The position numbers and the translations under genes are program-made. Shown here piece by piece: positions 1 through 16,135 of a stretch of DNA of 64,000 nucleotides. Each line of letters begins with the position of its first letter. Positions within the stretch are counted from its first letter, which is position 1. The stretch comes from Halomonas sp. HL-93 (GTDB lineage Bacteria > Pseudomonadota > Gammaproteobacteria > Pseudomonadales > Halomonadaceae). The stretch spans positions 620,001-684,000 of the forward strand of contig NZ_LT593974.1 of NCBI RefSeq assembly GCF_900086985.1, read 5' to 3'. Under the pieces are notes generated by a model. It was not told the origin of the DNA and searched no databases. It saw nothing but the letters and a program-made list of their open reading frames with translations.

Positions 1-319
1 CCGGCTCACCGCGCCAACCAATCATCATCACAAGCGGGATGGAGTAAACGCATTTGTCAGTAAGAGAAATCAAGGGGTTCATGGCGTTGCCCATACCGGA
101 GTTTTGCATATAAACCAACGGTACGGTGTTGGTGGCAAGGTGATAGCCTGCGGCTAGAGCAATTGCATTTCCCTCGTTCGCTGCAAGAACATGTCTGTTC
201 TTATCCCATGAGGTATCGAGTCCAAGGCAGAAATCATTCAACAGGGTGTCAGGCACACCACTAATAAATTCGACACCATTTTGTTTAAGAACTTGATAGA
301 CATTTTTAAGATCGATCAT
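1..319 (-). CDS. aepY: Phosphonopyruvate decarboxylase-like TPP enzyme, N-terminal part (cut by window edge)
   Basis: Only the first ~106 codons are present; the gene runs off the left edge. The start is the ATG whose complement is at 317-319, 19 bases after the stop of the PrpD-like gene. The translation begins MIDLKNVYQVLKQNGVEFIS and carries GVPDTLLNDF, the NEGNAIALAAGYH stretch with the TPP-activating glutamate, VYMQNSGMGNAMNPL and MIGWRGEP. These match the N-terminal pyrimidine-binding domain of phosphonopyruvate decarboxylases, which convert phosphonopyruvate to phosphonoacetaldehyde and pull the unfavourable PEP mutase reaction forward. Sulfopyruvate decarboxylase is a close relative and cannot be excluded from this half. 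It is the last visible gene of the leftward glycan operon. A PEP mutase gene would be expected to the left, outside the window. Confidence 0.8.
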   Translation of the reverse strand, partial: MIDLKNVYQVLKQNGVEFISGVPDTLLNDFCLGLDTSWDKNRHVLAANEGNAIALAAGYHLATNTVPLVYMQNSGMGNAMNPLISLTDKCVYSIPLVMMIGWRGEP

Positions 320-338
320 GAAAAGCCTTTAGAAGTAC

Positions 339-1694
339 TTAATTTTGTAGTAAGCGGTGGAACGCTTTGAGGTCTTGAGGCAATTGCCATACTTCATTTT
401 TCAGCAAATCACTTTTCTCTACAGCTACACCTCCATAACCGGCGAGATTCGTAAATTTTTCCTCTAGTTCCGCATCTGTAAGCGGATTTTCGGGCTCTCC
501 TTTCGGGAAGGTCACTAACTCCCTATATACGGTGCCATCATTTGTTTCAAGCCGCAGCTCAGCTGCCCGTTGATCAGGGACACGATCCGTATACTTTTGA
601 TCTGCTGAGATCGTCACCTTTCGTGCCAAGGCACGAATTTCGGCGTCGTCAACGGTCTCCTGAGTAAATTCATTGATACCTGCAGAGCCCGTTTTTATTG
701 CCAGGGCCACACTAAAGGGAACACTCATTCGCGCAGCCGAAATATCTGAAACTTCCTTGTGATCATGGCGTCCTGCCAGGCCGTGGTAGGTGGTGATATG
801 TATGTTCTTTATATCCACAGGAAGCACATGGGCCTTCTCCAGTATACGAATCGTACCTTCAATTGACGGATGAGCATGTCGGCATGCTGCGTAAGGCTTT
901 ACGTATACGCTGTGAATCCAGTAGCCGCTCGGGCCGTTTGCAAGAATTAACTCCTCCCTGTATTCATCTGTCGTCATTCTCAGAAATCCGGTGTCTCCGT
1001 TTAATGCGTCCTCCGGAGCACTAAAGCCAGCACGCGCCATGATCGCAGAGTGGACAGCTAAAACAGCCGCTCGCCCTACACTGTAGGGTTTTAACTCAGA
1101 TCCTTTGTCGACAACTTTAAGGCTACCAGTTGCAGACACTGACGCTGCCGCCAAAGCATTCTCCATTTCCTGAGCATTGAACCCCAGCATCGCAGCAATG
1201 CCCATGGTTGCGCCAATGGCTCCACAAGTGGCCGTCGGGTGATAGCCTCGCCTGTAGTGTGTTGGCTGCATGGCGCTGGCTAACCGAAGGGCCGCATCGT
1301 AGCCCACCAACACCCCACGAATAAAGTCGTTCCCGGTCACGTTTAACTTTTCAGTCATTGGAATTAGGGCTGAAAATATAGGAGCGCCTGGGTGAATCAT
1401 GCCGAAGCGAACACCATCATCCATTTCGGCAACATGGGAACTCAATCCGTTTATCAGTGCGGCGGTTTCTATACCGATTTTAACCGAGCTGCCAATAACG
1501 CCGACACCATCCTTATTTTCGCCCGCCATGCCAATGATTTTGCCAACCCGCGGCTCAAGAACCCTGGCACCGGCCAGTGCAGCACCCAGGTAATCAAGTA
1601 GGCACCGTTTAACCTGATGCCGGGCGGCTTCATCCGGCTCTTGAATCATGATCCGCTGCAAGTCTGCGACTAACCGTTGAGTCAAATTACTCAT
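339..1694 (-). CDS. MmgE/PrpD family dehydratase-like protein
   Basis: 451 residues, the usual length of the MmgE/PrpD family, whose members include 2-methylcitrate dehydratase, cis-aconitate decarboxylase and many enzymes of unknown substrate. Family landmarks are visible: HVAEMDDG near residue 90, HPGAPIFSAL near 100, GYHPTATCGAIGATMG near 150, and KPYSVGRAAVLAVHSA with the all-helical bundle around it. It is not beside prpB/prpC, so a methylcitrate-cycle role is unlikely. It lies 36 bases after an aldo/keto reductase and 19 bases before the phosphonopyruvate-decarboxylase-like gene in one operon. By inference it dehydrates or isomerises a tricarboxylate-like or phosphonate analogue made by the neighbouring CitE-like enzyme. 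The exact reaction cannot be read from sequence. Confidence 0.85.
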   Translation of the reverse strand: MSNLTQRLVADLQRIMIQEPDEAARHQVKRCLLDYLGAALAGARVLEPRVGKIIGMAGENKDGVGVIGSSVKIGIETAALINGLSSHVAEMDDGVRFGMIHPGAPIFSALIPMTEKLNVTGNDFIRGVLVGYDAALRLASAMQPTHYRRGYHPTATCGAIGATMGIAAMLGFNAQEMENALAAASVSATGSLKVVDKGSELKPYSVGRAAVLAVHSAIMARAGFSAPEDALNGDTGFLRMTTDEYREELILANGPSGYWIHSVYVKPYAACRHAHPSIEGTIRILEKAHVLPVDIKNIHITTYHGLAGRHDHKEVSDISAARMSVPFSVALAIKTGSAGINEFTQETVDDAEIRALARKVTISADQKYTDRVPDQRAAELRLETNDGTVYRELVTFPKGEPENPLTDAELEEKFTNLAGYGGVAVEKSDLLKNEVWQLPQDLKAFHRLLQN

Positions 1695-1730
1695 TATTTA
1701 TGCTTGAACTGTCGTGGAGTGAAGTAGGTT

Positions 1731-2681
1731 TCAGCCTGTCGTTCTGAAGTACGGAGGAGCCTCCGACCTTGCATGGTGCCAAGCCGACTCAAAAGCGTCG
1801 AGTACCGCTGGAGGAAGAGCGCCACGCTTGAGAATATCAAGGTTTTCCTGCAACTGACTGAGGCTTGAAGCACCAATGAGAAGGCCATCGCCCTTTTGAG
1901 AGTCCAGGGCTGAGTGTTCAGATAACCATCTTAATGCGCCTTCCACCATTGTAATGCCCGTATCATGGCACGCATCCTGGAGCACCTGCAGCGCATTGAA
2001 GAACTCTTTCTTCCAATAACGCTGCTTGTAATTAGGGCGGTGAGTGAACCGGCCCGGGCTTGGTTCAGAGTCGAAATTTGAATAATTACCCGCCAAGATG
2101 CCACCAGCAAGAGGATTATAAGCGTAGAAACTCATATCCAGTTCCCGCAGCGCGGGAATGAGTTCACTCTCAACGTTCCGGCTTAGGCCATTATATAGCC
2201 CTTGATAAACTGAAGGGAGCGTCCAGCCATTTCTATCGCATATATGCCAGATATGAGCGACTTCCCAAGCGGCGTAATTACTGAGCCCTAACTTCTCAAA
2301 GTAACCCTGCTGACGTAATTCAGCACATGCTTTCAGCGTTACTTCCAAGGGCGTACTCGGATCAGGAAAATGAAGATACAGTGTTTCTACAGAAGGCTGT
2401 TGTAGTCGTTCAAGTGAAGTAAGCAATTGCTCTTTGATCGATTTTTCGTCCAACTTCCCGGTCACTCGTGGATTGACCTTCGTGGCTATTTTCAGTCTTT
2501 GTTCAGTTAGCTGTTTGCATGCCTGTCCCAAAAATTTCTCACTATCACCGGAGTTGTATACATAGGCCGTATCCAATTCATCATTACCCCGGCTTGTGAA
2601 GTGCTCAGTCATTTCAACACTTTCATCTAGAGTAACCTGGGGGCCAAATGTCATAGTGCCCAGGATTGCCTTAACAGGCAT
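1731..2681 (-). CDS. Aldo/keto reductase, AKR7-like
   Basis: 316 residues with the aldo/keto reductase TIM-barrel pattern: LGTMTFGP at the N-terminus, the Asp/Tyr catalytic segment DTAYVYNSGDSE near residue 38, the catalytic Lys in KIATKVNP, the His in YLHFPDPSTP, LGLSNYAAW, and a C-terminal cofactor-binding region (GALRWLSEHS, LLIGASSL). The DTAYVYNSGDSE form and overall layout resemble the AKR7 group, which reduces short dicarbonyls and semialdehydes. Its ATG overlaps the stop of the upstream U32-like gene (TAATG), so the two are probably translationally coupled. In this operon a natural substrate would be phosphonoacetaldehyde from the downstream decarboxylase-like enzyme; that is inference. 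The substrate could equally be another aldehyde or a keto sugar. Confidence 0.85.
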   Translation of the reverse strand: MPVKAILGTMTFGPQVTLDESVEMTEHFTSRGNDELDTAYVYNSGDSEKFLGQACKQLTEQRLKIATKVNPRVTGKLDEKSIKEQLLTSLERLQQPSVETLYLHFPDPSTPLEVTLKACAELRQQGYFEKLGLSNYAAWEVAHIWHICDRNGWTLPSVYQGLYNGLSRNVESELIPALRELDMSFYAYNPLAGGILAGNYSNFDSEPSPGRFTHRPNYKQRYWKKEFFNALQVLQDACHDTGITMVEGALRWLSEHSALDSQKGDGLLIGASSLSQLQENLDILKRGALPPAVLDAFESAWHHARSEAPPYFRTTG

Positions 2682-3574
2682 TATTTACCCTCCGCTTTAG
2701 GTGAGCGCTTTGCTTCCGGATAGTACTGATCAATCATTCGCTGAACTAAATGAACCTGTTTTATCCGTTTTTTTGCATCCTCTGAACTGGTGTCCCATGA
2801 GTGGGTTTTAGCGACTGATCCCCCAGTTTTGAGATATATGGGCGACGCGACCCTAATCATCTCTGGAACTTCGTAATGACGAATGAATCCACCAGTGGAG
2901 GCTGGGTTCTCAGTATGAATGTCTACCGGAACGTTAATTGTTTGGCGAATGGCTGCCAGCATCTGGAGCTGGATATCGCGCACCGGATTGATTGAATCGG
3001 CACCATTAAGTTCCAACAGCCTTGCTGAGCATGGGTTGCCATGTCCGGTATGGGCCGAAATTTTGAATCTACAGGCTTCCGGGATTTCCCCAGCTTTGCG
3101 CATTTCATTTAATACCCAGAGATGGCCTTCGTCATAGAGCAGGAACGATCGGCACCCGAGCATTGCCGCGCGCTTTATGTCTTCAATAGCCCGTACGATT
3201 TGATCCTGCCCACGAAGGCGGTAGCCCATGCGTTGACCTTCTGGGGTGTTTACTGAGGCGCTGGTGTCGTATGTTGCCCTGGGGCCAACCGATAGCACCA
3301 AGTCCACCTTATGCTTGCCAGCGAGTGAAACCATCTCACTGATTTCCGCATCCGACAGCAACATGATGCCTTTGGTTTGCGTCACTCTGTGGATGACCGC
3401 TCCTGTCTCTTTCGCTTCTTCGAGTAAGGTTTTCATTACACCTGGCCCTTGAATGCCGGGAACTTCGAAGCGATATTGGCCACCATCGGGAAAGCGTTTT
3501 TCAGAAGAACTCAGAGCGAAATCATCTCCCTGCGGCAGACCTATTTTTTTGAGGAAGTCCTGCGTTGCTTTCAT
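2681..3574 (-). CDS. U32-like TIM-barrel protein of unknown function
   Basis: 297 residues, no signal peptide or membrane segment. The order of segments (SVGPRATYDTSA, GCRSFLLYDEGHLWVL, KISAHTGHGNPCSARLLELN, VDIHTENPASTGGFI, PIYLKTGG) looks like a (beta/alpha)8 barrel related to peptidase family U32, which is often wrongly read as a protease and includes RNA- and cofactor-modifying enzymes. The SAHTGHGN motif sits where U32 proteins have SVHT/TQAN. I cannot assign a reaction. It lies between a CitE-like lyase (52 bases upstream) and the AKR-like gene (1-base overlap downstream), which suggests a dedicated biosynthetic step. It lacks the long C-terminal collagenase-like domain of larger U32 proteins. 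Confidence 0.6.
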   Translation of the reverse strand: MKATQDFLKKIGLPQGDDFALSSSEKRFPDGGQYRFEVPGIQGPGVMKTLLEEAKETGAVIHRVTQTKGIMLLSDAEISEMVSLAGKHKVDLVLSVGPRATYDTSASVNTPEGQRMGYRLRGQDQIVRAIEDIKRAAMLGCRSFLLYDEGHLWVLNEMRKAGEIPEACRFKISAHTGHGNPCSARLLELNGADSINPVRDIQLQMLAAIRQTINVPVDIHTENPASTGGFIRHYEVPEMIRVASPIYLKTGGSVAKTHSWDTSSEDAKKRIKQVHLVQRMIDQYYPEAKRSPKAEGK

Positions 3575-3626
3575 GGTATCTTTCTCTTGGTGGCAATCGT
3601 TAGAAAATCAGGTGGTGAAGTCAAGT

Positions 3627-4769
3627 TTAATGCTTGAACAGTTTCAGATAGCATGACTCTTCTTCAATTACCCCGAACGCCTTGGCACACTGAACGACCT
3701 TCTGGGCCCAATTTCGGTGTGGGTTTATTTCATTCATTTTGTTGGATTTTTTACTCTTTATCACCCCACCGCTGGCATCAAGAACTTGCAAAGCGTCCTC
3801 GTACTCTTCTAGCGTCACGGCCTGCATCGCATTTACATACTTTAGATGCGAAGGATGGATAATGGTCTTTCCGATAAATCCATTTGATTTATCCAGAATC
3901 ACCTCTCTGAGCAGGCCGTCAATCGCATCATTTACAATAGGCTGGCGATTGACCAATGAATGGTGAATATTCTGCTCGATAATATCGTCGATATTGTCGC
4001 CTGAAGAGGCAAGGAAATACTCCCATACCGGAGCAGAAACGATGTAACCATCGGTGGCGCGATTAAAAAAGTTCAATATGTCTGAAAGACAATCTCGAAC
4101 CACAAGAATGTCGTAAATAGATGAATTCATGCCCCTACGGACACCAAACAACGATGAGAAATCCGTAGCACCCACGCGAATGTTGAGAATAAGGTCCCGG
4201 AATGGTTCTAGCGTGTTCTTGAGCAGTCTGAGCTCCATTGTTCGGGTTTCATGAAAGGCTATTGCCGAGCCTTCCAGAATGGGCATGCCGTATAACCTTA
4301 CGCCAAGACGCTGGTTCAACTTTGCCAAATGATTCAGAAACAGAAGGCTGTTTTCGGAGCTGAATTTTGGAAAAACAAATCCTGTTAGTAGGTCAGCCTC
4401 TTCCGCTATCAAACGATCAGTAAAACTAATGAAGTGTTTTTCGTTTCTAACCCTAAGAAAAATTAACGGGATGTCTGACTGACCAATTTTCCCTGCCCGA
4501 ATCGCTCCAGCAAGCGACCGAAGATGCCTGAGAACATTATCTTCCGCTTCCGGCAAGTTTTCTTCAGTAATCGCATCCTCGAAGCACATAACCATGGACG
4601 TAAGATCATTAAGGTCTTGGCTCAACAGCTTATTAATTACTTGCCTGGTTGCTGGCATATATAAAGTGCCACCAAGACAATACTGGAGAAGATTTTTTTC
4701 GGTATATTTGTCAAACTCGACTGGAGTGTGGACAAATGGGAAGTCTGGCTTGTGTCTGTGATGCTTCAT
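3627..4769 (-). CDS. CitE-like C-C bond lyase (HpcH/HpaI/citrate lyase superfamily)
   Basis: 380 residues. LYMPATR near residue 36, MCFEDAITEENL near 62, PLIFLRVRN near 100, LTGFVFPKFS near 128, YGMPILEGSAIAF with the metal-binding Glu near 162, NIRVGATDFSSLFGVRR near 197 and GFIGKTIIHPSHL near 310 follow the HpcH/HpaI aldolase/CitE barrel, in the form seen in the C-C_Bond_Lyase group (PF15617) known from tellurium-resistance-associated biosynthetic operons. Such enzymes make or break a C-C bond next to a carboxylate using Mg2+, for example on malyl-, citramalyl- or citryl-thioesters. Its ATG overlaps the stop of the aminotransferase gene by four bases (ATGA). No ter genes are visible, so the context is glycan biosynthesis. 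Low GC compared with the right-hand genes. Confidence 0.75.
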   Translation of the reverse strand: MKHHRHKPDFPFVHTPVEFDKYTEKNLLQYCLGGTLYMPATRQVINKLLSQDLNDLTSMVMCFEDAITEENLPEAEDNVLRHLRSLAGAIRAGKIGQSDIPLIFLRVRNEKHFISFTDRLIAEEADLLTGFVFPKFSSENSLLFLNHLAKLNQRLGVRLYGMPILEGSAIAFHETRTMELRLLKNTLEPFRDLILNIRVGATDFSSLFGVRRGMNSSIYDILVVRDCLSDILNFFNRATDGYIVSAPVWEYFLASSGDNIDDIIEQNIHHSLVNRQPIVNDAIDGLLREVILDKSNGFIGKTIIHPSHLKYVNAMQAVTLEEYEDALQVLDASGGVIKSKKSNKMNEINPHRNWAQKVVQCAKAFGVIEEESCYLKLFKH

Positions 4770-5860
4770 GCAACGCTTCTTATCAGATCAATGATACGTT
4801 GAGATGCTGATGGTGTTATGCCTACGTAGAGGGGTAGGCAGATAATTCTATTTGCTAAATTTTGTGAATTGATACAAGTTTTTTGACAACTTGATTGAAG
4901 TTGGGCCAATTGGTTGAGCGAAGGATAGAAATACCTTCTGGCCAGTATGTCTTCACCCGCCAATACGTCCAAGAGCTCTTTCAGTTGAGTTTCGCTTTTT
5001 AATGCTAAGGGGAAGTAGGCACAGTTTTGTGTCGCATGCGGGCTCCAGGCCTGAAGCTGCCCGCATGGCTTCAAGCCACGCTCATACGCCTTCCAAACTG
5101 CCACTCTCGCGTCATGGTTACTTTCCTTTTCATCCAGTACACAAAGCCCCATCGCCGCATGTAGCTCGCTCATTTTAGCGTTGATGCCTAGTTCTTCGAT
5201 TGCCTCTGGCCCAGTGATGCCGAAATTGATCATTTTCTTGGCACGCTCGAGGTCTTCTTTCTTCTTGAATACAATCGCGCCGCCTTCACCGGTGTGAAAT
5301 AGCTTGGTGGCATGGAAGCTAAGCGTAGCTGCATCCCCATGTTTGAGAAGGCTTTCGCCTTTGTAGTTCACACCAAAGGCGTGGGAGGCGTCGTATATTA
5401 CTTTCAGGTTATGCTGGCTTGCAATTTCGTCAATGGCTTCCACGTCACAGGCGTTGCCAAAGACATGTACGGGAACAAGGGCGCGCGTGCGTGGGGTAAT
5501 GGCCTCTTCGATGAGGCTTGGATCTAAACACCAGGTATTCGGGTCAATATCTGTAAAGGCAGGATACACGCCTTCCCATTTTAGCGAGCTTGCGGTAGCT
5601 ACAAAGGTGAATGGCGTGGTGATCGCCTCGGTAAGCTCGCTACGACCACTAATATCCAGTGCTCGGTAAGCAATCTGCAAGGCTAAGGTGCCGTTGGCGA
5701 CAAGCAAGAGGTTTTCTACCCCGAGGTATTCTTCCAGGCGCTGAGTAAGTTGTTGCACTAATTCGCCGTTGTTCGTGAGCCAAGCGCGCTCATAAATGCC
5801 ATCTATATAGCGGTCGAGCTTTTCACGGCTAGGCAAGTAGGGCTTGGTCACAGGTATCAT
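4766..5860 (-). CDS. VioA-like dTDP-sugar aminotransferase (DegT/DnrJ/EryC1 family)
   Basis: 364 residues from the MIPVTKPYLP start at 5860, chosen over an in-frame ATG seven codons upstream because an AAAGG site lies at the right distance and because VioA-type proteins begin this way. It has LTNNGELVQQL, the GTLALQIAYRAL PLP-phosphate loop, TTPFTFVATASS, VPVHVFGNACDV, YDASHAFG with the PLP-binding Asp, and SFHATKLFHTGEGGA with the Schiff-base Lys. DegT enzymes with these forms aminate nucleotide-linked 4-keto-6-deoxysugars. With RmlA and RmlB made from the same transcript, dTDP-4-amino-4,6-dideoxyglucose (viosamine) is the most economical product. A 3-aminotransferase (FdtB type) is less likely because no 3,4-ketoisomerase gene is visible. 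It ends in an ATGA overlap with the CitE-like gene. Confidence 0.85.
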   Translation of the reverse strand: MIPVTKPYLPSREKLDRYIDGIYERAWLTNNGELVQQLTQRLEEYLGVENLLLVANGTLALQIAYRALDISGRSELTEAITTPFTFVATASSLKWEGVYPAFTDIDPNTWCLDPSLIEEAITPRTRALVPVHVFGNACDVEAIDEIASQHNLKVIYDASHAFGVNYKGESLLKHGDAATLSFHATKLFHTGEGGAIVFKKKEDLERAKKMINFGITGPEAIEELGINAKMSELHAAMGLCVLDEKESNHDARVAVWKAYERGLKPCGQLQAWSPHATQNCAYFPLALKSETQLKELLDVLAGEDILARRYFYPSLNQLAQLQSSCQKTCINSQNLANRIICLPLYVGITPSASQRIIDLIRSVA

Positions 5861-5901
5861 AGTAGGCCTTTCATCACGCATGAATGATGCGACAGGGTTG
5901 C

Positions 5902-6771
5902 TTATGCATCACTCACCAATTGCTGTAAGTAAGCGCCGTAGCCGCTCTTTTCCAATGCCTTGCTTAGGTCCATCAACATCTCTTGGTTGAGCCAGCCTTG
6001 ATTGAAGGCGATTTCTTCAAGGCAGGCAATTTTGTAGCCTTGGCGCTTTTCAATGGTTTCAACAAACTGCGCAGCTTCCAATAAGCTGGCATGAGTACCT
6101 GTATCCAACCAAGCAAAGCCGCGACCAAGCAGTTCAACGTGTAAATCTCCGCGCTCCAGATACGCTTGGTTAATACTGGTGATTTCAAGCTCGCCTCGAA
6201 CTGAGGGCTGCACCTGCTTGGCAATATCAATTACATCATTATCGTAAAAATACAAGCCTGTTACGGCATAGTGTGAGCGCGGTTTTTTGGGCTTTTCTTC
6301 GATACTCACCGCACGTCGTTCTGAGTCAAACTCCACGACTCCGAAGCGTTCCGGGTCTTTTACTTGGTAGCCAAACACAGTTGCTCCGCTATCTCGAGCA
6401 GCCGCTTGACGAAGCTTGGGTGTAAAACCTTGACCATAGAAGATGTTGTCGCCGAGCACGAGGCAGACATTGTCGCCACCGATAAATGTTTCTCCGATGA
6501 TAAATGCCTGTGCTAAACCTTCTGGATTGGGCTGTACTGCATAATTTAGGTTAATGCCAAAGCGGCTGCCATCGCCGAGCAGGCCCTGAAAGCTCGCCTG
6601 GTCATGGGGTGTGGTGATAATCAACACATCCCTAATGCCTGCCAGCATCAGTACTGACAATGGGTAATAGATCATCGGTTTGTCGTAAATTGGCAGCAAC
6701 TGTTTGGAAACGCCCATGGTGATAGGGTAAAGCCGGGAGCCGCTGCCCCCTGCTAAGATGATGCCTTTCAT
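5902..6771 (-). CDS. rfbA: Glucose-1-phosphate thymidylyltransferase RmlA
   Basis: 289 residues, typical for RmlA/RfbA. The N-terminal nucleotidyltransferase signature [11 protein letters not shown] is followed by [39 protein letters not shown], a Lys-containing [20 protein letters not shown] and [12 protein letters not shown]. The enzyme joins dTTP and glucose-1-phosphate to make dTDP-glucose, feeding RmlB encoded just upstream. The ATG overlaps the rfbB stop by four bases (ATGA). No rmlC or rmlD follows, so the pathway branches at dTDP-4-keto-6-deoxyglucose to the aminotransferase next door and not to rhamnose, at least within this window. Confidence 0.95.
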
Positions 6772-7838
6772 GCTTTGCCCTCGCCCAATACTGGTATTGG
6801 CTTATCGGCCAACAGCGAAGGTTCTTTATCTTGGTGATTCGCTGCGGCATGCAGTGTCCACAGGACTGTCTTGCGTAACCCGCTACCAAAGCTTTCCAGA
6901 GGGCGCCAGCCTAACTCAAAAGTGATTTTGCTGTTGTCGACCGCGTAACGCAGGTCGTGCCCCGGACGGTCTTCCACGAAGGTGATTTGTTCGATATATG
7001 AGTTCTGACCACGGGGTGCTAGCTCATCCAGCAATCCGCAAATTCGGCGAACTGTTTGTATATTACTATGCTCGTTGTTGCCGCCGATGTCGTACGTTTC
7101 TCCCAGGCGACCTTTGGTCAGCACCAAGTGCAAAGCGCGAGCGTGGTCTTCCACATAAAGCCAGTCACGGATCTGCGTACCGCTGCCGTATACCGGTAGC
7201 GGTTTGCCACTTAGCGCGTTTTTTATGGTGAGGGGAATGAGCTTCTCTGAGTGTTGCCAGGGGCCGTAGTTGTTGGAGCAATTGGTGATCACTACGGGCA
7301 AGCCATAGGTGCGGTACCAGGCGCGAACGAGATGGTCTGAACTGGCTTTGCTGGCAGAGTAGGGCGAGCTAGGTGCGTAAGGAGTCGTTTCATTAAATGC
7401 AGGTGCGTCGGGGGTTGCTAAATCACCGTACACCTCATCGGTAGAAACGTGATGAAAGCGGAAGTACTTACGTTTTATTTCAGCAAGCCCTTGCCAGTAG
7501 TCCCGGGCGGCTTCTAAAAGCGTGTAGGTGCCCACAATATTGGTTTCTATAAAGGCGGCTGGTCCACGAATTGAGCGGTCAACGTGGCTTTCAGCGGCTA
7601 GATGCATGATGGCATCGGGGTGGTGTTGTTGAAACAGCCGATCAATCGCTTGCCGGTCGCAAATATCTACTTGTACGAGTTGGTAGCGTTCACTTTGCGC
7701 TGCACCTTCTAGCGCGTTGAGGTTGGCGGCATAGGTGAGCTTGTCAGCATTGATGATGTCCCAGTCAGTATTCGCCATCAAAAAGCGTATAACGGCGCTG
7801 CCAATAAAACCTGCACCGCCAGTGATGAGTAGCTTCAT
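6768..7838 (-). CDS. rfbB: dTDP-glucose 4,6-dehydratase RmlB
   Basis: 356 residues. The N-terminal Rossmann motif GGAGFIGS, the segment [11 protein letters not shown], the catalytic [11 protein letters not shown] with Thr-Asp-Glu, the YSASK catalytic Tyr/Lys, [17 protein letters not shown] and [12 protein letters not shown] are all present. It converts dTDP-glucose to dTDP-4-keto-6-deoxyglucose in the cytoplasm. It is the first gene of the leftward operon; its promoter should lie in 7839-7990, but I could not pick a convincing -35/-10 pair. The C-terminal ~20 residues after [11 protein letters not shown] are a non-conserved extension. Confidence 0.95.
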
Positions 7839-8400: not shown

Positions 8401-9009
8401 GTGGATTCCACAGACTTGATACTCATGATCGCCATTTTGTCGGTCTGGTTCAGCCTTAACTGTGGCTTGGTGTTGTTGTATTTGCTGCTCAACGGAGAAG
8501 CTCCGAAGTTCAGGTTCCGCTCTGCTAAGCGTTCTAAATCCTTGCCTGTTGCCCCGTCCAATTCAGCAGAGCCAGATGATGCGCCGGTTCTTGTGGATGA
8601 AAACGCTAGTGCGTGGGGGCTGTTTGTGATGTTTGATGAGCCGACGATGGCTAGCAATGAGCGCTTAAGCATCGTGCTTTTATCTTCTGGCGCGGTGTAT
8701 GAAAGCAGCACTAAGTCTTTCACCCTGGCGGGAGACTCACCCCGCAACCCGATTCATATTGCTAACGCCTACCCACCTGCCTCACTGCCTTCCTTCAACC
8801 AGGATAACGGTCAATTCCCTGTGAAGGGCGTGGCGTTGAAAATGATCAAGAAATCGCGTAGTGCCACGCCCAACAAACTTCAGCTGGTGCGCTTGGTAAA
8901 GTTAGCCAAAGAACTCGCACGGATTGGCGGAAAGGTCGTGGATGCCGACAAGCAACCAGTGACCCCCAGCGGTTTTCAAGCAGTGATCGACGGGAAGGCG
9001 AAAGTGTAG
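8401..9009 (+). CDS. One-TM protein with ZipA C-terminal-like domain (paralogue 1)
   Basis: 202 residues from a GTG start preceded by an AGAAGAGAA purine stretch. Residues ~6-30 form a membrane helix (ILMIAILSVWFSLNCGLVLL), then a short charged linker, then a domain from ~65 with WGLFVMFDEPTMASNERL, NPIHIANAYPPASLPSF, PVKGVALKMIKK and a final helix KELARIGGKVVDADKQPVTP. The order (strand, xIAN/SVAN-like, hydrophobic strand, ARxLAxxxGGxxxDxxxxPLT helix) is that of the FtsZ-binding C-terminal domain of the division protein ZipA. It is clearly paralogous to the gene at 11618: both share W-x-S-x-N in the helix, NP(I/L)xIANAYPP, and A-x-x-GG-x-(V/I)-(V/L)-DA. It lacks ZipA's long Pro/Gln linker. 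The function is unknown. Confidence 0.75.
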   Translation: MDSTDLILMIAILSVWFSLNCGLVLLYLLLNGEAPKFRFRSAKRSKSLPVAPSNSAEPDDAPVLVDENASAWGLFVMFDEPTMASNERLSIVLLSSGAVYESSTKSFTLAGDSPRNPIHIANAYPPASLPSFNQDNGQFPVKGVALKMIKKSRSATPNKLQLVRLVKLAKELARIGGKVVDADKQPVTPSGFQAVIDGKAKV

Positions 9010-9821: not shown

Positions 9822-11480
9822 ATGCTGGAGAAACTCCACAAGATCAATGTGAAATACACCCTGGCGTTTATCCTGGTGGCCTTGTCGCTGCTGGGCGTTG
9901 TAGTGGTCGATAGCCTGCTAGTCCAATCCATACGCGAGCGCATGACGGCGTTCAGCGGCTCGTTTAATCCGGCGGTGTCAGCGGTGCTCAATGCGGACCG
10001 TGATTTGTATCAGTCGCGGGTAGCAGAGCTTGAAGTGCTGCGCGAAGAATCGGGTAGTCAGGCGGCTAGCGCCCAGTACGACGATTACCTTGAAAATGCC
10101 GAGCAGGCGTATGACCGGATGCATGACTTCCTCACGTTACTGGACGCGTATCCGCAGGTGAGCGAGGGGCTTGAGCCGTTCGAGGATCGCTTTACGGCCT
10201 GGGAGGCGGCGTCCCTGCGTGTCTTTGAGCTTCATGCGGACGGCGAAGTTGACGCCGCTGAGGAGCAACTGGAAGGTGACTCGCTGACGGCCTTTAACTC
10301 CTTGCGTGAGCTATACAACATCGCCGGTGAAAGTGCTGATGCGCGTGGCTTGGCCCTTGAGGAAGAAACGCTGGCCCAGGTGGCCGTGCAGCAGCGCTGG
10401 GTGATGGGCTTCACCGCCTTGGTGCTCCTTGCCACATTGGTTATTGCCTTGATGGGGCCGAACCTGATGTCCCGGGCACTTCGTCAAGTCAGCGGTCGCA
10501 TTCGCGATATTACCCAGGGGGAGGGCGACCTGACGGCGCGCATTAATAGCCAGCGTCGCGACGAGATCGGCGAGCTGGCCCGCGAGTTTGATGGCTTCAT
10601 TGCCCGTATGGATGTCAGCTTCCAGGCGGTGCGAGATGGCGCCCGCAATGTCAATGTGGCATCGAATGAGATTGCCACCGGCAGTGAGGATCTCGCGTCG
10701 CGAACGGAAGAGCAAGCTTCGGCGCTGCAAGAGACGGCGTCCAGCATGGAGGAAATGTCCTCTATCGTCCGCCAGAACAGCGAGTCGGCCAGCAATGCCG
10801 ATACGCTTTCCAGTCAAGCCTCCGAAAAAGCCGAGAAGGGTGTCAAAGAGGTCCAGCACTCGGTGGCCTTGATGCGCGAGCTTGAGACCAGTTCGCGCCA
10901 GGTGGGTGAAATTGTCGAAGTCATCGATTCGATTGCCTTCCAGACTAATATCCTGGCGCTTAACGCCTCGGTCGAGGCGGCGCGTGCGGGCGAACATGGC
11001 CGTGGCTTTGCGGTGGTGGCCAGCGAAGTGCGCAACCTCGCCAGCCGCAGCGCGGACTCATCCAAAAAAATCCGTGAGATGATTACGGATATTAGTCAGC
11101 GCATCGCCAGCGGGGCCGAGCAAGCGGTACGCAGCGGCGAGGGCATTCAGGATACGGTAGAAGCCATCCGCCAAGTCTCGGGACTAATGAACGAGATTTC
11201 GCTGGCCGTACGCGAGCAGGAATCTGGTATTCAGCAGGTGGGCACGGCGCTAACACAGATGGATTCCGCCACGCAGCAGAACGTCACGCTGGTGTCGCAA
11301 ACCAGCGGCTCGGCGGCCTCCCTTCAGCAGGAGGCCAACCGCCTCACGCGCCTGGTGGATGCGTTCAAGCTGAGTGGCGATAGCTCAGATACCGCTTCTT
11401 CAGCGCTACCCAAGCCGGCTTCCCAGCAGGTAGCGCAGCGCAACCCGATGAAAAACGAACCTGAGTGGGAAGCTTTTTAG
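9822..11480 (+). CDS. Methyl-accepting chemotaxis protein
   Basis: 552 residues. A membrane helix at ~13-33, a periplasmic four-helix-bundle-type sensor region ~34-188, a second membrane helix ~191-211, a HAMP domain ~212-265 and the long cytoplasmic coiled coil follow. The signalling tip is conserved (DSIAFQTNILALNASVEAAR, then GEHGRGFAVVASEVR). The protein ends NEPEWEAF: the last five residues resemble the NWETF tether for CheR/CheB at the end of high-abundance E. coli receptors. The ligand cannot be read from sequence. The gene stands alone between the higBA remnant and a ZipA-like gene and has no che genes nearby. Confidence 0.9.
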   Translation: MLEKLHKINVKYTLAFILVALSLLGVVVVDSLLVQSIRERMTAFSGSFNPAVSAVLNADRDLYQSRVAELEVLREESGSQAASAQYDDYLENAEQAYDRMHDFLTLLDAYPQVSEGLEPFEDRFTAWEAASLRVFELHADGEVDAAEEQLEGDSLTAFNSLRELYNIAGESADARGLALEEETLAQVAVQQRWVMGFTALVLLATLVIALMGPNLMSRALRQVSGRIRDITQGEGDLTARINSQRRDEIGELAREFDGFIARMDVSFQAVRDGARNVNVASNEIATGSEDLASRTEEQASALQETASSMEEMSSIVRQNSESASNADTLSSQASEKAEKGVKEVQHSVALMRELETSSRQVGEIVEVIDSIAFQTNILALNASVEAARAGEHGRGFAVVASEVRNLASRSADSSKKIREMITDISQRIASGAEQAVRSGEGIQDTVEAIRQVSGLMNEISLAVREQESGIQQVGTALTQMDSATQQNVTLVSQTSGSAASLQQEANRLTRLVDAFKLSGDSSDTASSALPKPASQQVAQRNPMKNEPEWEAF

Positions 11481-11522
11481 ATGAGTTGTCAGTGCTCGAC
11501 CCGTCACGGGTCTGGGCCAAAA

Positions 11523-11550
11523 TTGATTTTCCTGGTTTTTGTTCGATAAT
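11523..11550 (+). promoter_or_regulatory. Putative sigma-70 promoter for the second ZipA-like gene
   Basis: TTGATT at 11523-11528 and GATAAT at 11545-11550 with 16 bases between. It lies after the chemoreceptor stop and ~70 bases before the ATG at 11618. A GC-rich hairpin (GCGCCCC/GGGGCGC, 11566-11587, 8-base loop) sits in the predicted 5' leader. Confidence 0.45.
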
Positions 11551-11617
11551 GAGAGGCTTTACATGGCGCCCCTGGGGGATGGGGCGCTCAGTTCCTCTTT
11601 CAGCAGGGAATCAACGC

Positions 11618-12310
11618 ATGGACCCGCATAAACTGGCGGTAGCCTTGGCCATTGCAGCAGGCTGGCTAAGTTTTAACAGTCTTATCCTCTCAATGTATTT
11701 CATACTAAGTAAAAGAGGGATATTGGAAGTCGACGGTTGGAAAATGGGCGAGTGGCTGAAGCTTGGGCGACGATTATCACCTGTTGCCGAGCGGGACGTA
11801 TTGCCATCCCGGTCGCCTGTCGCGGATATAAAGGTGAACACCTCCTCTACGCTACCTAGCCATGAAGATAGTGTAGAGGAGGTGGCTCCTGAAAAGGGCA
11901 AGGCTGGCGAATACAGCGCTGTGCATGTGCTTTTTGTCATGTATAGCCAGCCCAATATCGCAATCAATAAAAAACTCCAGCTGTGCTTACAAAACTGGGA
12001 GGCCCACTACGATGCCGATCTTAAGGTTTACATCGTGCCTGGGGTTACCCCGCAGAACCCGTTACGCATTGCCAACGCTTACCCGCCTGGGGAAATGCCT
12101 TCCCTGGAGGCTTTTCAGCAGACGGAAAACCTGATTAGCGGCGTGAGCGTGATACTCGAAAAGCCGAAGCGTAAGCGTGGTTTTGATAAGGTCCAGTTGG
12201 AAAAGCTTATCATCTTTACGCAACAATTAGCCGCCTTAGGCGGCGAGATACTCGATGCCCAGCGCCAAGTCGCTACGCTTAAAACGTTCAACGCTATACG
12301 GTACAAATAG
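11618..12310 (+). CDS. One-TM protein with ZipA C-terminal-like domain (paralogue 2)
   Basis: 230 residues from the ATG at 11618 (CAGGGAA upstream); an earlier in-frame start inside the chemoreceptor gene is rejected because it would precede the membrane helix with unrelated sequence. A membrane helix ~5-30 (ALAIAAGWLSFNSLILSMYF), a ~75-residue linker with acidic and Ser/Pro content, then a domain from ~100 with VHVLFVMYSQPN, NPLRIANAYPPGEMPSLEAF, ISGVSVILEKPK and a helix IFTQQLAALGGEILDAQRQ. Segment order and hydrophobic pattern match the ZipA C-terminal domain, which binds the FtsZ tail. It is a diverged copy of the gene at 8401. A real zipA is expected elsewhere, beside ligA. Function unknown; FtsZ binding is a hypothesis. 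Confidence 0.75.
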   Translation: MDPHKLAVALAIAAGWLSFNSLILSMYFILSKRGILEVDGWKMGEWLKLGRRLSPVAERDVLPSRSPVADIKVNTSSTLPSHEDSVEEVAPEKGKAGEYSAVHVLFVMYSQPNIAINKKLQLCLQNWEAHYDADLKVYIVPGVTPQNPLRIANAYPPGEMPSLEAFQQTENLISGVSVILEKPKRKRGFDKVQLEKLIIFTQQLAALGGEILDAQRQVATLKTFNAIRYK

Positions 12311-12477: not shown

Positions 12478-13248
12478 ATGCGACTAACACGCACGCTGAA
12501 TATGACCCTGGGCGCGTTTGCATTAAGCATTGCCAGCGGGTTATTTGCCGCCACTACCCAAGCCGATACGCTGAAGGTTGGCATGTCGGGCGGTTATTTC
12601 CCCTTTACCTTTGTGGAGCAAGACGAACTCAAAGGGTTTGAAGTCGATGTCATGAACGCCGTAGGTGAGATAACCGGCGATGACATCGAGTTCGTGACGG
12701 CAAGCTTTTCTGGCTTGGCCGGTATGCTGGAATCTGGACGGATCGATACGATTGCCAACCAGATTACGATAACTGAAGAGCGCCAAGCGAAGTATGCATT
12801 CACCTCACCGTATGTTTACGATGGTGCGCAGGTAGTGGTTCGGGCAGGTAACGACACCATTCAAGGCGTTGAGGACTTATCCGGTAAAAGCGTCGCCGTG
12901 AACCTCGGGTCTAATTTCGAGCAACTGCTACGTGAACTGCCCAATGCTGATGAAATCGATATCCGCACCTACGAGTCTAACGTCGAGCAGGACGTGGCGG
13001 TTGGCCGGGTGGATGCCTTCGTGATGGATCGAGTGAGTGCCAGCCAGGTCATTAGCGAGCGCAATTTGCCGCTTGAGTTGTCTGGGCAGCCATTCAATAC
13101 CATCGAAAATGCGCTACCGTTCCGTGATGATGAAGAAGGCCGTGCCCAGCGCGACCGTGTTGACGCAGCGCTCGAAGAACTGCGCGATAACGGAACGCTA
13201 GCGGATATATCGCAGAAATGGTTCGATACTGACATCACCCAACCATAA
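12478..13248 (+). CDS. Periplasmic amino-acid (cystine-type) ABC transporter binding protein
   Basis: 256 residues. A Sec signal peptide (~1-30, charged N-terminus, hydrophobic core, cleavage after TTQA) is followed by a family-3 solute-binding fold: KVGMSGGYFPFTF, LKGFEVDVMNAV, FSGLAGMLESGRIDTI, ITITEERQAKYAFTSPYVYD and VAVGRVDAFVMDR. The family carries polar amino acids; the ATPase and permease that follow are closest in form to the FliY/TcyJ-YecSC cystine importers, so L-cystine is the best guess, not a proven substrate. The gene is preceded by GAGG at a good distance and followed by a strong hairpin that should raise its level over the permease. Confidence 0.85.
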   Translation: MRLTRTLNMTLGAFALSIASGLFAATTQADTLKVGMSGGYFPFTFVEQDELKGFEVDVMNAVGEITGDDIEFVTASFSGLAGMLESGRIDTIANQITITEERQAKYAFTSPYVYDGAQVVVRAGNDTIQGVEDLSGKSVAVNLGSNFEQLLRELPNADEIDIRTYESNVEQDVAVGRVDAFVMDRVSASQVISERNLPLELSGQPFNTIENALPFRDDEEGRAQRDRVDAALEELRDNGTLADISQKWFDTDITQP

Positions 13249-13271
13249 TCGAGGCTCTCGCCTGTTGATGG

Positions 13272-13298
13272 CGGCCGTGGCAATGCCACGGCCGTTTT
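13272..13298 (+). terminator. Intra-operon terminator-like hairpin
   Basis: A perfect 10-bp stem CGGCCGTGGC / GCCACGGCCG with a 3-base AAT loop, followed by TTTT. It sits in the 69-base gap between the binding-protein stop and the permease start. Such hairpins commonly stop most transcripts or protect the upstream 3' end, giving more binding protein than membrane components. Confidence 0.75.
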
Positions 13299-13317
13299 GC
13301 TTATAAGCGACGTAACT

Positions 13318-13986
13318 ATGCTGAATGTGGAGTATATGTGGGGCCTGCTGCCGGTCCTGTTAAGGTATTTACCGTTAACGCTGCAGATGGCGACTATCGC
13401 CATGCTGTTTGCGCTGATTATCGCCTGTCTGTTAGCGGTAGTTCGAGTCTCGCGGATACCGGTGCTGAATGGTGGGGCACTGCTGTTTATTTCGTTCTTC
13501 CGCGGAACGCCGCTGCTGGTGCAGCTGTTTCTGTTTTACTACGGCCTACCGCAACTGATTGATGCGCTCATTTCCATTAATGGCGTGACCGCTGCCGTGC
13601 TGGGTCTAACGCTGCATTTCTCCGCGTACATGGCGGAATCCATTCGTGCGGCCATTGTAGGTATTGACCGGAGCCAGACCGAGGCGGCGCTTTCCATCGG
13701 CATGACCCAGTCGCAATTGATGCGCCGTATTATCCTGCCCCAGGCAACCCGTGTGGCAACGCCGACGCTGATGAATTATTTCATCGATATGATCAAGGCC
13801 ACCTCGCTGGCGTTTACCCTGGGTGTCACCGAGCTAATGGGCGCTACCCAAAAAGAGGCCTCAGGAAGCTTTCTCTATTTGGAAGCGTTCTTGCTAGTGG
13901 CGATTATTTACTGGGTGGTGGTGGAGGTACTCTCATGGGGCCAGCGCCGTCTGGAAACGTATCTGAATAAGGCGTATCAGCGATGA
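13318..13986 (+). CDS. Amino-acid ABC transporter permease
   Basis: 222 residues from the ATG at 13318 (a TTG seven codons earlier is in frame but overlaps the hairpin T-run region and is less likely). Several membrane helices; the SFFRGTPLLVQLFLFYYGLP signature of His/Glu/Gln/Arg/opine permeases and the ATPase-docking EAALSIGMTQSQLMRRIILP loop are clear. It forms the membrane channel for the importer with the ATPase encoded immediately downstream (4-base overlap). Confidence 0.9.
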   Translation: MLNVEYMWGLLPVLLRYLPLTLQMATIAMLFALIIACLLAVVRVSRIPVLNGGALLFISFFRGTPLLVQLFLFYYGLPQLIDALISINGVTAAVLGLTLHFSAYMAESIRAAIVGIDRSQTEAALSIGMTQSQLMRRIILPQATRVATPTLMNYFIDMIKATSLAFTLGVTELMGATQKEASGSFLYLEAFLLVAIIYWVVVEVLSWGQRRLETYLNKAYQR

Positions 13987-14738
13987 TCACTCTGGAATCT
14001 GTCAGCAAGCGATTTGGTCAGCAGCCAGTGTTTACAGACATCAATTTGCATTTAGACCAGGGTGAAATCATTGTCATTATCGGCCCATCGGGGACCGGTA
14101 AATCAACTCTGCTGCGCTGTATTAACTTTCTTGAACGCCCGGAAGCGGGGCATATCACGGTAGGCAACTTACGCGTCGATGCACGCCAAGTGAGCCGCGC
14201 CGATATTCTGGCACTGCGGCGAAGAACCGCCTTTGTGTTTCAGAACTATGGTCTGTTTGCGAACAAAACGGCGTTGGAAAACATTAGCGAAGGCATGATT
14301 GTGGTAGACAAGCTGCCCAAGGCTCAAGCCGACGCGCGGGCGAGGGATATTTTGGCGCGGATTGGCTTGGCGGATAAAGCGGATGCCTACCCGGCGTCGC
14401 TTTCCGGTGGCCAGCAGCAACGGGTTGGTATTGGTCGGGCGATGGCGGCCAATGCCGATGTGATTCTGTTTGATGAGCCTACTTCGTCGCTTGATCCCCA
14501 ATGGGTAGAGGAAGTGTTAAGCTTGATGAAGCAGTTGGCGGTAGAGCGGCAGACGATGATCGTCGTCACCCACGAGATGCAGTTCGCCCGTGACGTGGCG
14601 GATCGCGTGGTATTTATGGACGAGGGTGGTATTGTCGAGCAGGGCCCGCCCGAGGAACTGTTCACGGCACCCAAGGATGAGCGCACTCGCCACTTCCTGC
14701 GCAAGATTTTGGCGCCCATGGGGCAGACAGTGCCGTGA
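13983..14738 (+). CDS. Amino-acid ABC transporter ATP-binding protein
   Basis: 251 residues. Walker A GPSGTGKST near residue 37, Q-loop FVFQNYGLF near 83, signature LSGGQQQRVGIGRAM near 140, Walker B VILFDEPTSSLDP near 160 and the switch His in VVTHEMQFA. It is the ATPase of the preceding cystine-type importer. The ATG overlaps the permease stop by four bases. Confidence 0.92.
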   Translation: MITLESVSKRFGQQPVFTDINLHLDQGEIIVIIGPSGTGKSTLLRCINFLERPEAGHITVGNLRVDARQVSRADILALRRRTAFVFQNYGLFANKTALENISEGMIVVDKLPKAQADARARDILARIGLADKADAYPASLSGGQQQRVGIGRAMAANADVILFDEPTSSLDPQWVEEVLSLMKQLAVERQTMIVVTHEMQFARDVADRVVFMDEGGIVEQGPPEELFTAPKDERTRHFLRKILAPMGQTVP

Positions 14739-15851: not shown

Positions 15852-16135
15852 TGCTTAGCGTGGTGTGTTGGCGGCGGACTTTTTACGCTGTTGAAACACC
15901 CTAGCAAGCCCGCATTCTGCGTGATAGACTATGCCATCCTCTCAGACAAGACCCGTGAGCGGGCAGCTGAAATGAACTGCTCGCTACACTAATTTGGCCG
16001 GGCTATTGCACAAAAATAGCTGCCAAATCAATTGGTTGTTACGGAAGCGTCGTATTGTCCGAGTCGGCGTGCGACGAACACATAGTTAATCCGTTGCCCT
16101 TTAATCGGCAACCTTATTCTCCAAGGAGATACCCA

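Follow-up and report, generated by a model that had tools for sequence, protein, structure and literature searches.

In the viosamine island of Pseudomonas syringae, as described in PMC3927599, dTDP-viosamine is N-acylated with a 3-hydroxybutanoyl group and put on the flagellin glycan, and the island, comprising vioA, vioM, vioT, vioS, vioB, vioR and acp, varies between strains. Here we describe an operon of Halomonas sp. HL-93 that bears comparison with this island. The DNA analysed, hereafter the window, is 64,000 nucleotides long (positions 620001–684000 of the single-contig, 4.14-Mb genome) and holds the first part of the operon. We put at about 0.55 the probability that, as its gene content suggests, the operon makes one activated flagellin-glycan sugar, a dTDP-4-amino-4,6-dideoxyhexose with a purpose-built hydroxy acid on its 4-amino group. 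The product is probably an unusual sugar-decorating acid and not a phosphonate.

The likeness to the P. syringae island (PMC3927599) lies in an aminotransferase-made dTDP-aminosugar, a purpose-made hydroxy acid and flagellin as the acceptor, all three predicted ones in HL-93; furthermore, VioT, the large transferase that acts on the flagellin glycan in P. syringae, has 1173 residues and the large glycosyltransferase (GT) found near the HL-93 operon has 1201. Consistent with this likeness, RmlA and RmlB score above their equivalog cut-offs, and GT and flagellin genes lie nearby. Whereas the same source lists acyl carrier protein (ACP) genes (vioS, vioR and acp) and vioB, the HL-93 operon encodes a CitE-like protein, a 'U32-like' protein, PrpD, PcaB with a hydrolase, a phosphonopyruvate-decarboxylase-like enzyme (Ppd) with an aldo-keto reductase (AKR), and an ATP-grasp ligase. 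No ACP, ketosynthase or VioB is present among the eleven operon genes, the rest of the genome not having been searched for them. Segments of the citrate and methylcitrate cycles condense, dehydrate and rehydrate their substrates, and the CitE-family lyase, the PrpD-family dehydratase and the hydratase of the cassette could likewise act serially. In contrast to those segments, the operon holds no aconitase, its counterpart being class I fumarase or PcaB with the PF04199 hydrolase, and the setting is glycan loci rather than central metabolism. No published description of the cassette was found in the open-licence PMC literature, as represented mostly by titles and abstract openings; PMC4000134 deals with a different cluster.

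The operon consists of eleven minus-strand genes and reaches left past the window edge; positions beyond the edge are given in the numbering of locus L004, in which the L004 position equals the window position plus 9001. From the first gene, the order is rmlB, rmlA, DegT-family aminotransferase, CitE-like, 'U32-like', AKR, PrpD, Ppd, ATP-grasp, PcaB-like and PF04199 hydrolase, with successive intergenic distances of −4, 20, −4, 52, −1, 36, 19, 19, 55 and −8 bases. The earlier note, made from the letters of the window, had described a tightly coupled leftward operon of eight genes, and all the reading frames that it named are found on the minus strand where it placed them; it stopped too early, however, as three more genes lie left of the window. 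It had also proposed reading leftward for a phosphoenolpyruvate (PEP) mutase and GTs. Two GT genes are indeed there, the operon continues with the ATP-grasp, PcaB-like and PF04199 genes, and no PEP mutase above the cut-off occurs in the genome. The GC content is 47–52% in the operon, versus 55–60% over window positions 16001–64000. Scanning the DNA ahead of rmlB revealed no promoter, against a mean of 1.3 for shuffled sequences.

The first three genes account for the aminosugar. Specifically, rmlB (6768..7838), for dTDP-glucose 4,6-dehydratase, scores 477 bits against TIGR01181 (cut-off 365.1) and is the sole gene of the genome above that cut-off, while rmlA (5902..6771), for glucose-1-phosphate thymidylyltransferase, scores 510.8 bits against TIGR01207 (cut-off 360.65). 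The DegT-family sugar aminotransferase (4766..5881) matches PF01041 above the Pfam cut-off and is DesI/VioA-like by nearest match: the closest NCBIfam model is DesI (261 bits, below the cut-off of 650), and the top PDB chain is 2po3 (182.6 bits), a DesI structure, followed by perosamine synthetase (147.9 bits). DesI makes dTDP-4-amino-4,6-dideoxyglucose. The aminotransferase gene overlaps citE by 4 bases.

The acid branch begins with the CitE-like C–C bond lyase (3627..4769), a core cassette gene product that scores 367.3 bits, above the Pfam cut-off, against PF15617, a family named after Ter-operon biosynthesis. The stretches MPIxE, GxTDfSs and GfxGxTxIHP, which are CitE-type motifs, are kept across 73 cassette members. 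The second core protein, 'U32-like' (2681..3574), has no Pfam family and is a probable aldolase. Its AlphaFold2 model is a TIM barrel (predicted local distance difference test score 84.7), and its identity among 47 relatives is 71–93%. In contrast to members of the U32 family such as UbiU/UbiV and Mk0906, it gives no match to PF01136 up to E 5, and the genome as a whole gives none at E 0.001. Profile comparison with Escherichia coli UbiU/UbiV returned a probability of 0.2%, the UbiU/UbiV profile being a weak one of two sequences. A fold search with the model retrieved class II aldolases, the U32 protein Mk0906, PEP-mutase-superfamily enzymes and other TIM barrels, with no clear winner. Membership in U32 is thus unsupported by sequence tests, and the label of the earlier note is kept here as an inherited name.

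The remaining acid-branch genes in the window encode the AKR (1731..2681), the dehydratase-like enzyme PrpD (339..1694) and the N-terminal part of Ppd (1..319). The AKR, which matches PF00248 above the Pfam cut-off and forms the reductive module together with Ppd, had been called AKR7-like, in agreement with PDB scores of about 290 bits for AKR7A3 and AKR7A2 and 108.9 for the next match; AKR7A2 is a succinic semialdehyde reductase. PrpD, also a core cassette protein, carries both MmgE/PrpD Pfam domains above cut-off (PF03972, 169 bits; PF19305, 124 bits), and its closest PDB chains are iminodisuccinate epimerase and IRG1. Ppd, a thiamine-diphosphate decarboxylase of 378 residues (L004:8184-9320), scores 393.6 bits against the TIGR03297 equivalog (cut-off 312.5), which upholds the name given from its N-terminal part; the earlier note had allowed for a C-terminus of another subfamily, and the complete protein scores as a Ppd. 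Beyond the window edge lie the genes for the ATP-grasp ligase (L004:6920-8164), the PcaB-like lyase (L004:5512-6864) and, last in the operon, the PF04199 hydrolase (L004:4509-5519), each identified by Pfam match. The PcaB-like lyase is nearest to PcaB models and, in the PDB, to fumarate lyase 3c8t and trans-aconitate decarboxylase, and it falls below every equivalog cut-off.

The acid genes form a recurrent cassette. Scanned with the 'U32-like' protein, GTDB representative genomes gave 233 relatives, of which the best 80 loci, that is the closest relatives, were kept. CitE accompanies the 'U32-like' gene in 80/80 loci, on the same strand and at a median gap of 88.5 bases (largest 5776), and PrpD was found by tblastn with the protein of this genome in 72/80, the 8 misses all falling in loci of 3–17 kb. 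Further counts refer to the 45 loci that span 19 kb or more; the other 35 are shorter, and the 18-kb stretch of this genome stands outside the 45. Because the ORF caller, which begins each frame at its earliest start codon, assigned some long ORFs wrongly, these counts were redone with profiles on six-frame translations, matches being counted anywhere in the stretch. The 45 loci contain CitE in 45, PrpD in 45, ATP-grasp in 40, aminotransferase in 36, rmlB-profile matches in 16 and rmlA in 11 (U32 in 45 by construction); the cassette profiles were built from the same loci that they score, the rmlB-profile matches can include other epimerases, and many loci come from metagenome assemblies, making absences and single-phylum rows less sure. 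On control stretches of this genome (window 9001–64000 and L003), the cassette profiles matched one AKR and nothing else. The co-occurrence of the genes is far beyond chance, and the acid genes do not show the scattered occurrence that the earlier note had named as an argument against one pathway. Flippases, sugar transferases, GTs and aminotransferases recur around the cassette, the locus aminotransferases being diverse (22–69% identical to the HL-93 enzyme).

The 'U32-like' gene is rare. It occurs in 4/250 genomes of the family including this one (one of the four being 36% identical), in 1/398 genomes of the phylum sample, namely this genome, and in 2/196 in the order of Mediterraneibacter. 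Despite this rarity, the 'U32-like' proteins of the 80 loci are 72–77% identical to the HL-93 protein across phyla, pointing to transfer between distant bacteria. The gene has no match in E. coli genomes in a DNA-level search or in phages in a protein-level search, so no solved O-antigen can be linked to it by that path. Among more distant homologs, one that is 45% identical lies in an apparent sugar-acid operon of Thermomicrobium. On an Enterobacter plasmid, a cluster at L090:7883-18138 combines a distant U32-like homolog with an aminotransferase, an oxidoreductase, iron-containing redox enzymes and an M14 peptidase and looks like an uncharacterised small-molecule type. In Billgrantia campisalis, the PrpD gene (L027:8600-9950) looks broken, or affected by sequence errors, as its matches come in three pieces.

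Around this core, two slots of the cassette hold interchangeable modules. In the 45 loci, the reductive slot holds Ppd with AKR (20), Ppd alone (1), a D-2-hydroxyacid dehydrogenase (12), Ldh_2 (10) or none (2), and the hydratase position is occupied by class I fumarase alpha and beta (34) or by PcaB with PF04199 (10) and is empty in 1. Two kinds never share one slot (0/80 loci), and all six pairings of reductive and hydratase modules are seen. On a tree of U32 plus CitE from 78 loci bearing names of ten phyla, built by a quick method with no bootstrap, the reductive label changes 13 times, against a minimum of 2, and some sister loci differ in module. Distances in U32 are correlated with those in CitE (r 0.72; 0/2000 permutations as high), which together with the 13 label changes indicates that the core moves as a unit and that tailoring modules are swapped. 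In other cassettes, Ldh_2 has its nearest match in L-sulfolactate dehydrogenase (303 bits against a cut-off of 500; PDB 2x06). At one locus, an NADP isocitrate dehydrogenase above its NCBIfam cut-off lies between PrpD and 'U32-like' (L038:8747-9961), with no match at the other loci searched.

The link to flagellin comes from the left flank. Between 3 and 12 kb beyond the last gene of the operon lie two GT genes (nearer ends 3.4 kb off), a flagellin gene (8.2 kb) and two fliD genes, the FliD, FliD, flagellin and GT assignments resting on Pfam matches. In Vreelandella nigrificans, a cassette of the D-2-hydroxyacid dehydrogenase type sits between the same flanks as in HL-93: the ATP-binding cassette (ABC) transporter matches window positions 12478–14738 at 85–93%, and the GT–fliC–fliD–fliD block matches at 68–81%, with the GT match covering the first 765 residues. 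We compared eight cassette-less stretches beside the same GT. Apart from HL-93, GT matches were strongest in 11 genomes, eight of which supplied these stretches; the rest are G237, which has the cassette, and G228 and G190 (not fetched). At the limit used, the eight proteins of the acid cassette match nowhere in the eight stretches, while the aminotransferase is present in 6/8 (44–74%), rmlA in 3/8 (83–87%) and the ABC flank in 6/8. Their other genes encode a WbqC-like protein and a formyltransferase, an AMP-ligase with a short-chain dehydrogenase/reductase and a hexapeptide transferase, NeuB, or an ATP-grasp/epimerase fusion. The variety of modification genes beside a kept aminotransferase and GT indicates that the island is an exchange site for glycan-sugar modifications, the cassette being one option. 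The fusion, of ATP-grasp and NAD-epimerase parts, adjoins the flagellin-island aminotransferase of one cassette-less relative (L145:15497-17530) and is possibly another ligase for the same aminosugar.

Several other features were observed in these flanks. Transposase pieces lie between the operon and the GT genes (L004:1226-4408, window about −7775 to −4593); IS66 TnpB and TnpC, the latter in two frames, sit inside an rve-type transposase split in two, as if an element had inserted in an element. Two proteins with no Pfam family (window 8401–9009 and 11465–12310) flank a methyl-accepting-type gene near the ABC transporter, and ORFs with similar starts lie near the ABC genes of several relatives (for example L140, L142, L143 and L147), as judged by eye.

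Gene families, operon structure, conservation of the cassette, module swaps and nearness to flagellin are read from the sequence itself, and they suggest the following pathway. RmlA, RmlB and the aminotransferase would give a dTDP-4-amino-4,6-dideoxyhexose of the viosamine type. In the acid branch, the CitE-like and 'U32-like' TIM barrels would make or break C–C bonds, PrpD would strip water, and the hydratase module would re-add it at a different carbon. PcaB would lactonise and the PF04199 hydrolase would open the lactone, the pair doing the job that class I fumarase may do alone; with the two modules equal in this way, the segment would resemble citrate-to-isocitrate conversion without aconitase. 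The outcome may be a 2-oxo diacid, a guess drawn from the replaceable modules, the AKR7 type, the Ldh_2 type and the isocitrate dehydrogenase in one slot. An AKR7-type reductase, a Ppd matching TIGR03297 and a sulfolactate-dehydrogenase-like Ldh_2 are several enzyme types that would suit a 2-oxo acid bearing an anionic tail. In HL-93, Ppd would take off the 1-carboxylate and the AKR would reduce the aldehyde, giving an omega-hydroxy acid of the 4-hydroxybutyrate type, while in other cassettes the 2-oxo group would be reduced instead. The ATP-grasp ligase would couple the remaining carboxylate to the sugar amine, and the GTs of the island would move the acylated sugar onto flagellin. The order of the C–C, dehydration and hydration steps relative to decarboxylation and reduction, like the exact acid, is our guess.

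A number of observations weigh against this pathway. The flagellin link is seen in two species only: in the 37 kb fetched for the Billgrantia campisalis cassette, nothing matches flagellin, FliD or the large GT, and among the other loci searched a flagellin match occurs at L014 alone, suggesting that the cassette serves other surface glycans elsewhere. The operon holds no acyl-CoA source for a CitE-type reaction. The fold search for 'U32-like' points to TIM barrels generally and to no one family, and dehydration by PrpD is not assured, because its PDB relatives include an epimerase and decarboxylases. Five of the 45 loci have neither ATP-grasp group (two of the five have another ATP-grasp and one a FemAB-like protein, the remainder being L050 and L073), two have no reductive module, one of these holding the isocitrate dehydrogenase there, nine have no aminotransferase, and rmlA lies within the stretch in only 11. 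The 36%-identical homolog on the Enterobacter plasmid belongs to a dissimilar cluster.

The scarcity of sugar genes in some loci favours a different acceptor: the acid might be destined not for the 4-amino group of the dTDP-sugar but for a different sugar, an amino acid or the glycan as it grows, the rml and aminotransferase genes simply sharing the operon. That 9/45 loci lack an aminotransferase and 29/45 an rmlB-profile match, and that the aminotransferases present are as diverse as 22–69% identity to that of HL-93, would be accounted for in this way. We nevertheless consider this unlikely, though it deserves real weight, as the aminotransferase and citE genes overlap by 4 bases here, 36/45 loci do have a sugar aminotransferase, and the aminotransferase neighbours the same GT in 6/8 of the relatives' stretches, where the modification genes are different ones. 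A free small molecule, such as a secondary metabolite with no tie to a glycan, would suit the name of PF15617, which refers to Ter-operon biosynthesis, the distant U32 kin in catabolic or other clusters, and the lack of flagellin near the Billgrantia cassette; the flippases, sugar transferases, GTs and aminotransferases that recur around the cassette, and the same flagellin site in two species, make it improbable. Still less probable is a sulfonate, with sulfopyruvate as the 2-oxo acid and its decarboxylation or reduction following the pattern of coenzyme M synthesis. Resemblances exist, in that the nearest match of Ldh_2 in other cassettes is L-sulfolactate dehydrogenase at 303 of the 500 bits needed (2x06), Ppd reaches 103 bits against sulfopyruvate decarboxylase beta (cut-off 221.5) and the PcaB-like lyase scores 438 bits against XcbD (cut-off 600). 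However, ComA (PF02679) is absent from this genome and present in 3/21 genomes tested, this one among the 21, the operon has no known C–S-forming enzyme, and CitE and PrpD are left unexplained. The sulfonate route was judged unsupported after the ComA search.

The phosphonate raised in the earlier note would arise if Ppd converted phosphonopyruvate to phosphonoacetaldehyde and the AKR reduced this to hydroxyethylphosphonate on the sugar, with a non-standard enzyme such as the CitE-like or 'U32-like' protein having to form the C–P bond. The HL-93 Ppd lies above the phosphonopyruvate-decarboxylase cut-off, and all 35 scanned cassette Ppds match TIGR03297 at E 1e-93 or better, a limit that estimates the cut-off. 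A Ppd and reductase pair is also known in a phosphonate locus: PEP mutase/Ppd loci such as that on a Segatella copri plasmid (L112) resemble HL-93 in having a same-family Ppd followed by a reductase within a polysaccharide locus, whereas the HL-93 operon has no PEP mutase, an AKR7-type enzyme in place of phosphonoacetaldehyde reductase, and extra CitE, U32, PrpD, hydratase and ATP-grasp genes. In this genome the best match to PEP mutase (TIGR02320) scores 123 bits, under the cut-off of 319.55; the 20 other cassette genomes comprise 1 above the cut-off, 6 with weaker matches and 13 with none, and 0/14 control genomes are above it. Fifteen of the 20 carry Ppd, and 14 of those have no PEP mutase above the cut-off, some being metagenome assemblies, in which absence is less sure; in the fifteenth, the PEP mutase is on a different contig, adjoining its own second Ppd.

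In an unrooted Ppd tree, for which the program gave a long-branch warning, a branch with 100/98 support separates the 35 cassette Ppds from 6 PEP-mutase-linked Ppds. The L116 Ppd, with no PEP mutase in the fetched stretch, groups with the latter, and only one alignment column consistently splits the two sets, so the grouping is inconclusive as to substrate; among the rows compared, the nearest neighbours of the cassette Ppds are the PEP-mutase-linked L110 and L112. The L116 placement, the single separating column and the TIGR03297 matches together make a similarly shaped substrate likely. Against the phosphonate stand not only the PEP mutase results but also the lack of any use for PrpD or a hydratase in such a route, and the 22/45 cassettes in which Ppd and AKR give way to a 2-hydroxyacid dehydrogenase belonging to either of two families. 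Having dropped it as the leading explanation after the PEP mutase searches, the Ppd tree and the context of PEP-mutase-linked Ppds, we regard a phosphonate as very improbable. What stands of the earlier proposal is one pathway coupling a dTDP-aminosugar to an unusual acid branch, since the acid genes recur together and, in 6/8 stretches from relatives, the aminotransferase persists next to that GT with the acid genes absent; the phosphonate group does not, given the lack of a PEP mutase above the cut-off and the separate position of the Ppds.

The hydroxy-acid pathway proposed for HL-93 may be one form of a wider scheme, which we put forward tentatively, at somewhat less than even odds. An undescribed combinatorial pathway in about ten phyla would draw on central metabolites to build hydroxy or omega-hydroxy acids destined for surface glycans, with a fixed core of U32 aldolase, CitE and PrpD leading to a 2-oxo diacid, a fumarase or PcaB with a lactone hydrolase, one of three reductive modules and attachment by ATP-grasp, the Ppd there being a separate enzyme with another substrate. 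The 35/35 TIGR03297 matches, set against the 15/16 Ppd-bearing cassette genomes (including this one) with no PEP mutase above the cut-off, also call for caution with this curated equivalog model, named for phosphonopyruvate decarboxylase, as such matches in cassettes could inflate surveys of phosphonate makers. If the scheme is correct, it would explain the recurring block of genes resembling central metabolism that gut and marine bacteria carry in their surface-polysaccharide loci, it would add a new aldolase family and a new route to glycan acyl groups, and it would mean that cells diversify one acid by the swap of a single reductive module.

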